Positions 1,498 through 1,898 of a DNA stretch of 35,300 nt are shown one piece after another. The DNA lies in contig JALVTE010000076.1 of assembly GCA_027024155.1 (NCBI GenBank), positions 1 to 35,300 on the forward strand, given 5' to 3'. Position 1 is the first letter of the stretch. The number at the start of each line of letters is the position of its first letter. Below the pieces are notes generated by a model that was given only the letters and a program-made list of their open reading frames with translations, was not told where the DNA came from and searched no databases. This DNA is from Campylobacteraceae bacterium (lineage in GTDB: Bacteria > Campylobacterota > Campylobacteria > Campylobacterales > Sulfurovaceae). The translations under genes and the position numbers were made by a program.

Positions 1498-1768
1498 ATT
1501 ACCGCACCGATAAATAGTCTTAATTTTTGATGCTACAATTTCGTTCAAAAGCAAGGCAGATTTTTGCAGAACTAGCTAATACTAATTCAAAAAAATCTAA
1601 CGCAGTATTTGGGCGAAAGTGTAGCACCCTTTGGGGGAGGACGAGACGAGGCAATCTGCACATAAAAAAATCTTTGAATTAACTTTGGTTAGTCCTACAT
1701 ATTTTTTTATGCACATATCACCCCGTCTCGTCCTCTCAAAAGTTAAGACTATTTGTCAGTGCGGTAAT
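1498..1768. repeat. 271 bp three-armed palindromic element (MITE-like repeat or structured leader)
   Basis: The ends 1498-1530 and 1736-1768 are 33 bp inverted repeats with 30 matches. Inside lie two further hairpin arms. Arm A pairs 1531-1545 with 1612-1626 (12 of 15, two more as wobble) and has a nested 8-9 bp stem at 1558-1566 / 1588-1598. Arm B pairs about 1637-1671 with 1701-1735 (29 of 35) and carries GAGGACGAGACG and its complement. The whole can fold as a closed three-way junction. Both ends are flanked by TA (TA-CCGCAC ... GTGCGG-TA), as expected of a non-autonomous IS630/mariner-type insertion, but there is no transposase and the TA belongs to the repeat, so this is inference. Several arm-B mismatches become G-U pairs in minus-strand RNA. 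Confidence 0.75.
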
Positions 1769-1778
1769 AAAGTGCGGA

Positions 1779-1784
1779 AGTATA
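1779..1784 (-). promoter_or_regulatory. Likely -10 box of the rplU-rpmA promoter
   Basis: TATACT on the minus strand, preceded by TTGAGC and a T-rich tract as in Campylobacterota promoters. It would place the transcription start near 1772, only a few bases before the end of the palindromic element, so that the element would form most of a roughly 310 nt leader. I see no better -10 between the element and rplU. No -35 consensus is present. Confidence 0.35.
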
Positions 1785-1898
1785 GCTCAACTTAGTTTAA
1801 AATTATTTAAAAAAAACTCTATTTGTTCAGAATTGTCAAATAATTGTAAACTTTTTTCTTAATATTAATAAATATTTAGCAAATATACAATTATTTCT

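Follow-up and report, generated by a model that had tools for sequence, protein, structure and literature searches.

A three-armed palindrome in front of rplU is probably a non-autonomous mobile element, one of a widespread family that shares a conserved, gene-less core

The window, the whole stretch of 35,300 nucleotides of Campylobacteraceae bacterium contig JALVTE010000076.1 that was analysed, carries a palindrome of 269 bp (1499-1767) in front of rplU. An earlier note on this DNA had described a three-armed palindrome of 271 bp; the three arms, an outer stem pairing at 30 of 33 positions and the strong fold all stood, while the true limits lie 1 bp inside each of its coordinates. The stem count applies to 1498-1768 and becomes 29 of 33 at the element limits, and nowhere else in the 35.3 kb does a pair at the same spacing reach at least 24 of 33. 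Folded as RNA, positions 1480-1790 give -122.5 kcal/mol (z = -11.8, equalled by 0 of 100 shuffles), and the DNA fold of 1499-1767 is equally exceptional among its shuffles (z = -12.2; 0 of 200 as good). The palindrome contains no gene, as had been stated, the longest stop-free frame within it being 52 codons. At the boundaries of the window copy, TTACCGCAC is preceded by TTAA on the left and GTGCGGTAA is followed by TAAAG on the right; of the TA-flanked ends claimed earlier, the TA directly outside the right end (1768-1769) is present and the left flank is AA.

The outer stem is a terminal inverted repeat (TIR) on the forward strand, the left half of which (1499-1531) opens with a conserved end, TYACCGCAC (1499-1507), and is otherwise variable yet paired, and the right half of which (1736-1767) closes with GTGCGGTAA. 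Arm A, an imperfect hairpin of 94 nt (1532-1625, forward strand), is present in both the RNA and the DNA folds and has an R1 match at 1544-1612 (E 2.6e-19). Along the forward strand it comprises a conserved CNAGGC on the 5' side of an internal loop (1552-1557), the 5' side of a covarying 8-bp stem (1558-1565, partner 1591-1598), a conserved apical motif, GCAGRACTAGC-N-(G)CTAATTCAA, that includes a conserved C/A mismatch (1566-1590), and the 3' side of the 8-bp stem followed by a conserved AACGCAG (1591-1605). Added to the anatomy here is a mini-hairpin, CCC-TTTG-GGG, at the junction between the two arms (1626-1636, forward strand), which recurs in the end types inspected. Arm B, an imperfect hairpin of 99 nt (1637-1735), carries the apical motif inverted, on the reverse strand, with an R1 match at 1706-1666 (E 6.3e-8).

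The same plan of outer stem, arm A, CCC-N-GGG mini-hairpin and inverted arm B recurs in the family, and most elements are about 262-274 bp long across end types, with a few extending to about 340 bp. Stem sequences vary freely with pairing retained and the apical and internal-loop motifs are conserved, following in arm A the order CNAGGC, 8-bp stem, apical motif, stem and AACG. In the 8-bp stem of arm A, 85 cells were changed on both sides compared with 22 in shuffles, and the C/A mismatch is retained in 239 of 256 distinct tips, the adjacent pairs alternating between A-T and C-G. Each arm is made asymmetric by its apical motif and by T-G positions that do not vary, and in arm B the motif occupies the opposite strand; therefore, one RNA cannot present both arms in the same sense, and this strand polarity fits two inverted sites on DNA. 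A core that is more conserved than the ends, across phyla and with defined mismatches kept, implies a function of its own, which would most likely be the binding, in folded single-stranded form, of a protein of the host or of transposition.

Within its own genome, BLAST recovered one full second copy of the window element (L002), 83% identical over the whole length, and there are also about ten diverged three-armed elements with outer stems that are unrelated in sequence and still pair. Copies are present in 21 of 60 relatives, full copies having TYACCGCAC...GTGCGGTRA ends in common, and near-identical copies occur within single genomes in G170 and in the complete genome G261. Insertion sites are mostly intergenic (49 of 59 testable sites) and adjoin many different genes, and three of the sites occupied in G261 are uninterrupted in relatives, where identity is only 72-82%. 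Copies at many loci, with orthologous sites empty, are what the earlier note had looked to as support for a MITE, and both were found.

Outside the immediate relatives, a covariance model of arm A has matches in 37 of 298 Campylobacterota genomes (at most 17 scored candidates per genome), and the apical motif as an exact pattern (GCAGGACTAGC-N-GCTAATTCAA) occurs in at least 117 stretches of genome contigs, belonging by record titles to five phyla among the matches listed. These records include Sulfurovum, Sulfurimonas, Sulfurospirillum and Nitratifractor from the Campylobacterota, Microbulbifer, Thiodiazotropha, Sedimenticola and Chromatiaceae from the Gammaproteobacteria, and, further afield, Muiribacterium, Pseudobdellovibrionaceae and Portibacter; some are metagenome-assembled genomes, of which single ones may be mis-binned, and the Microbulbifer and Portibacter records come from isolates. 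A Photobacterium replicon carries a weaker relative, and Vibrio relatives of that Photobacterium sequence exist. The tip pattern had no match in viral contigs and the window element none in phages, while Rfam returned no match to the element at the gathering score and only sub-threshold hairpin matches, mostly to miRNA families. Literature searches by sequence and subject found no description of this palindrome family, and the Thiomargarita MITEs (PMC4853749) and the GTAG/CGTC REPs (PMC3733652), when compared with the element, did not match it.

No fewer than seven kinds of end enclose the core, namely TYACCGCAC (type 1, that of the window), ACCTGAGTT, GGGCACCTCTAA (type 3, a sister end type), AAGGCTACTCC, TAGTACTCCGTC, TAAGTCCTT and TAAGTACC, plus others, with a few assignments to TAAGTACC, the loosest class of the end-type table, being false. 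Beyond about 10 bp from the ends the outer stems differ among elements, and a single arm sequence, TTATGAGGTTTTTYATAGRC, is shared by three of the end types (ACCTGAGTT, AAGGCTACTCC and GGGCACCTCTAA), pointing to recombination between ends and arms. Exact 4-bp target duplications flank 18 of 37 type-3 elements, compared with 2.6 expected by shuffling (0 of 2000 shuffles reach 18), and some Gammaproteobacterial elements have CTAG flanks. For the window type, each of the ten recent full copies from G261 that were tabulated has TA on both sides. Identity at the empty sites being only 72-82%, a TA duplication is no more than likely for the TYACCGCAC ends; the TA could also belong to the end itself.

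A search for the mobilising transposase, covering 12 genomes of the genus and five of the family, most of them drafts, located no autonomous element with TYACCGCAC ends, sought as inverted pairs with a spacing of 0.8-3 kb. The proposal of a mobile element gained the copies, the empty sites and the 4-bp duplications of the sister end type, and no autonomous parent for the ends of the window copy was found in these genomes. Similarly, no autonomous GGGCACCTCTAA element was found in G170, G032, G297, G261 or G088, three of which are single-contig. None of the DDE_Tnp_1 genes over 17 genomes had matching TIRs, and there was no DDE_Tnp_1 match at all in G261, G170, G023 and G025, several copy-rich genomes being without any. 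The GGGCACCTCTAA ends do match those of an intact IS5-family element that lies outside the type-3 host genomes, on the Aliarcobacter faecis plasmid pAFAEC (TIR GGGTACCTCTAAAAAC, ATAT on both sides), and the conserved core is absent from that element. Among 20 lone GGGCACCTCTAA ends inspected there was one decayed carrier, L307 in G297, which spans 924 bp with GGGCACCTCTAA ends and ATAT flanks and contains a degenerate IS200-type TnpA (Pfam E 5e-20) and, by tblastn, an N-terminal remnant of an IS5-like transposase for which there was no Pfam match.

At the locus itself, the rplU-trmH gap of genus relatives is orthologous and lacks the element, the flank aligning without it, and the element accordingly holds no conserved position upstream of rplU. 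The GTGCGG at 1772-1777 that had been noticed as an echo of the right end is present and is unrelated to the element, since alignment with genus relatives identifies it, together with the adjacent TATACT (1772-1785, reverse strand), as native rplU upstream sequence that is kept in relatives without the element. In some of these relatives the TATACT is conserved as TATAAT (reverse strand, within 1772-1800), and judged by sequence this TATAAT-like box is probably the -10 region of rplU, for which a promoter scan reported no hit. Because the box would be the -10 region, the window element probably sits inside the rplU 5' UTR, between the box and the start codon.

The maintenance of pairing could be followed in recent copies. 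Two T/G mismatches in the outer stem of the G261 copies, at stem positions 7 and 13, are kept in eight of them, but in L262 both sides carry the left alleles there and in L263 both carry the right alleles, the mismatches at 26 and 33 being unchanged in each; one arm has been corrected to the other in patches and in both directions. In G170 there are three 158-bp derivatives without arm B, with 1, 0 and 0 mismatches over 44, and one of those free of mismatches (L288) matches its own left haplotype, for which full copies have 2-3 mismatches over 33. Outer-stem mismatches in 24 diverged representatives comprise 27 A-C and 25 G-T, and this lack of a G-T excess argues against RNA because G-T is what selection acting on a single RNA strand would be expected to prefer. 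In arm A, the lower stem does have a G-T excess over A-C (41:3), which was rejected as a sign of RNA; most of this excess comes from a few fixed motif positions, arm B shows it on the opposite strand, and it is read as motif polarity. Mutation by template switching, in which hairpins are both created and repaired, is an established process (PMC8794818), and the correction in both directions together with the absence of a G-T excess speaks for template switching in DNA rather than selection on RNA. The patches could also have arisen by ectopic gene conversion from one copy to another.

That the palindrome is a non-autonomous mobile element and not an RNA leader of rplU is well supported. The account to which we give good, though not full, confidence is of a non-autonomous MITE-like element, belonging to a widespread family with a gene-less structured core of fixed size (about 265-274 bp), that is moved in trans and has its pairing kept by DNA-level correction. 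A transposase acting in trans on the terminal sequence of about 10 bp would move the element into A+T-rich, mostly intergenic sites, and the two inverted hairpin arms would carry the conserved loop motifs as their stems drift. Pairing would be kept mainly at the DNA level by a polymerase copying one arm with the other as template, such switching in a hairpin or cruciform producing both-sided changes, patch conversions and sometimes perfect single-hairpin derivatives. The core is absent from the one autonomous IS5-family element found with such ends and occurs with many kinds of end, so it has persisted through exchange or drift of the ends. Standing against this account are the failure to find a transposase for the end type of the window in the genomes searched, TA flanks that are not separable from an extension of the end, with AA on the left of the window copy, ectopic gene conversion as another source of the patches, and the conservation of loop motifs across phyla, which exceeds the needs of an ordinary MITE.

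There is a small chance that the conserved two-arm core serves as the structure recognised by an undescribed, end-independent mobilisation system acting on folded single-stranded DNA; it would then be one 'passenger' that has moved among several families of transposon and no fewer than five phyla. A related reading, to which we would give a marginally smaller chance, has the core recognised as single-stranded DNA by a recombinase or HUH transposase still to be found, in the manner of attC or REP hairpins, with the ends secondary. Mismatches and internal loops that are conserved where stems change freely, the polarity of the motif, end types that change around a constant core and length, and copy-rich genomes without a matching DDE transposase all point in this direction; however, exact 4-bp duplications with short TIRs are typical of DDE transposases, the ends have no GTAG/CGTC tag, and no gene recurs beside the tips in 80 loci, the only recurrences being ORFs within elements or unrelated housekeeping families. 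It is improbable that the family consists of ordinary internal-deletion MITEs of one insertion sequence with the core as its relic: one end type matches IS5-family ends and L307 has its IS5-like remnant between GGGCACCTCTAA ends, but the intact IS5-family element is without the core, and the same core and length accompany at least seven end types in several phyla. A structured cis-regulatory RNA of the ribosomal-protein type in the rplU leader, as the earlier note had allowed, or any other conserved RNA, is the least credible reading of all, since the extremely stable fold, the stem covariation and the probable position in the 5' UTR are set against an empty orthologous gap in genus relatives, copies lying beside a wide range of genes, the lack of any Rfam match at gathering, an asymmetric apical motif that switches strand between arm A and arm B, and an outer stem without a G-T excess over A-C.

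Bacterial MITEs, among which Nezha is named, have been reviewed (PMC10969869). Like them, the preferred mobile element is short and gene-less, with TIRs, A+T-rich intergenic targets, many copies and a stable fold; unlike MITEs in general, its core is conserved in sequence and structure across different ends and several phyla at a length near 268 bp. IS5-family MITEs are approached by the sister type GGGCACCTCTAA, which has 4-bp duplications and the ends of the intact pAFAEC element, whereas the TYACCGCAC ends and TA flanks of the window were matched to no IS5 element and the autonomous one is missing the core. IS630/Tc1-type MITEs such as Nezha have TA at the insertion site, which the TA flanks of the window type would resemble. 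REPs are sequences of 20-40 bp with GTAG or CGTC tags, and REP/BIME palindromes are mobilised by RAYT tyrosine transposases (PMC3733652). The element resembles these in its imperfect hairpins, inverted pairs, intergenic placement and strand-polar motifs, and differs in being 269 bp with TIRs, in ends (TTACCGCAC/GTGCGGTAA) that have no GTAG/CGTC tag and in a sister type with target duplications. The attC sites of integrons function as a folded single strand with conserved mismatches and a freely changing stem, features that the element shares, while it differs in having two inverted arms within TIRs, and no integrase, cassette or R-box arrangement was seen.

MITEs are usually regarded as decayed insertion sequences, and here a gene-less core outlasts the ends in conservation. 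Near-identical copies within single genomes document, in nature, how one arm of a palindrome is corrected to match the other, and with such copies the old question of whether stem covariation reflects RNA selection or DNA template switching is directly testable. For the calling of RNAs by covariation, this palindrome family is a trap.

Several minor observations accompany the copies. The repeat breaks assemblies, with contigs of the draft genome AP10.008 ending at or very near the apical motif (L120, L138, L145, L172, L192 and L193). Three loci (L080, L081 and L084) are solo hairpins of ~40-55 bp that consist of the TYACCGCAC outer stem only and are probably deletion products of full elements. 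Further, arm A of a TA-flanked relative in G261 (L277) is interrupted by what seems to be a different small mobile repeat, a short palindrome nested within the arm (ATATCTTCAAGTAAGTGATAC...GTATCGCTTACCTGAAGATA).
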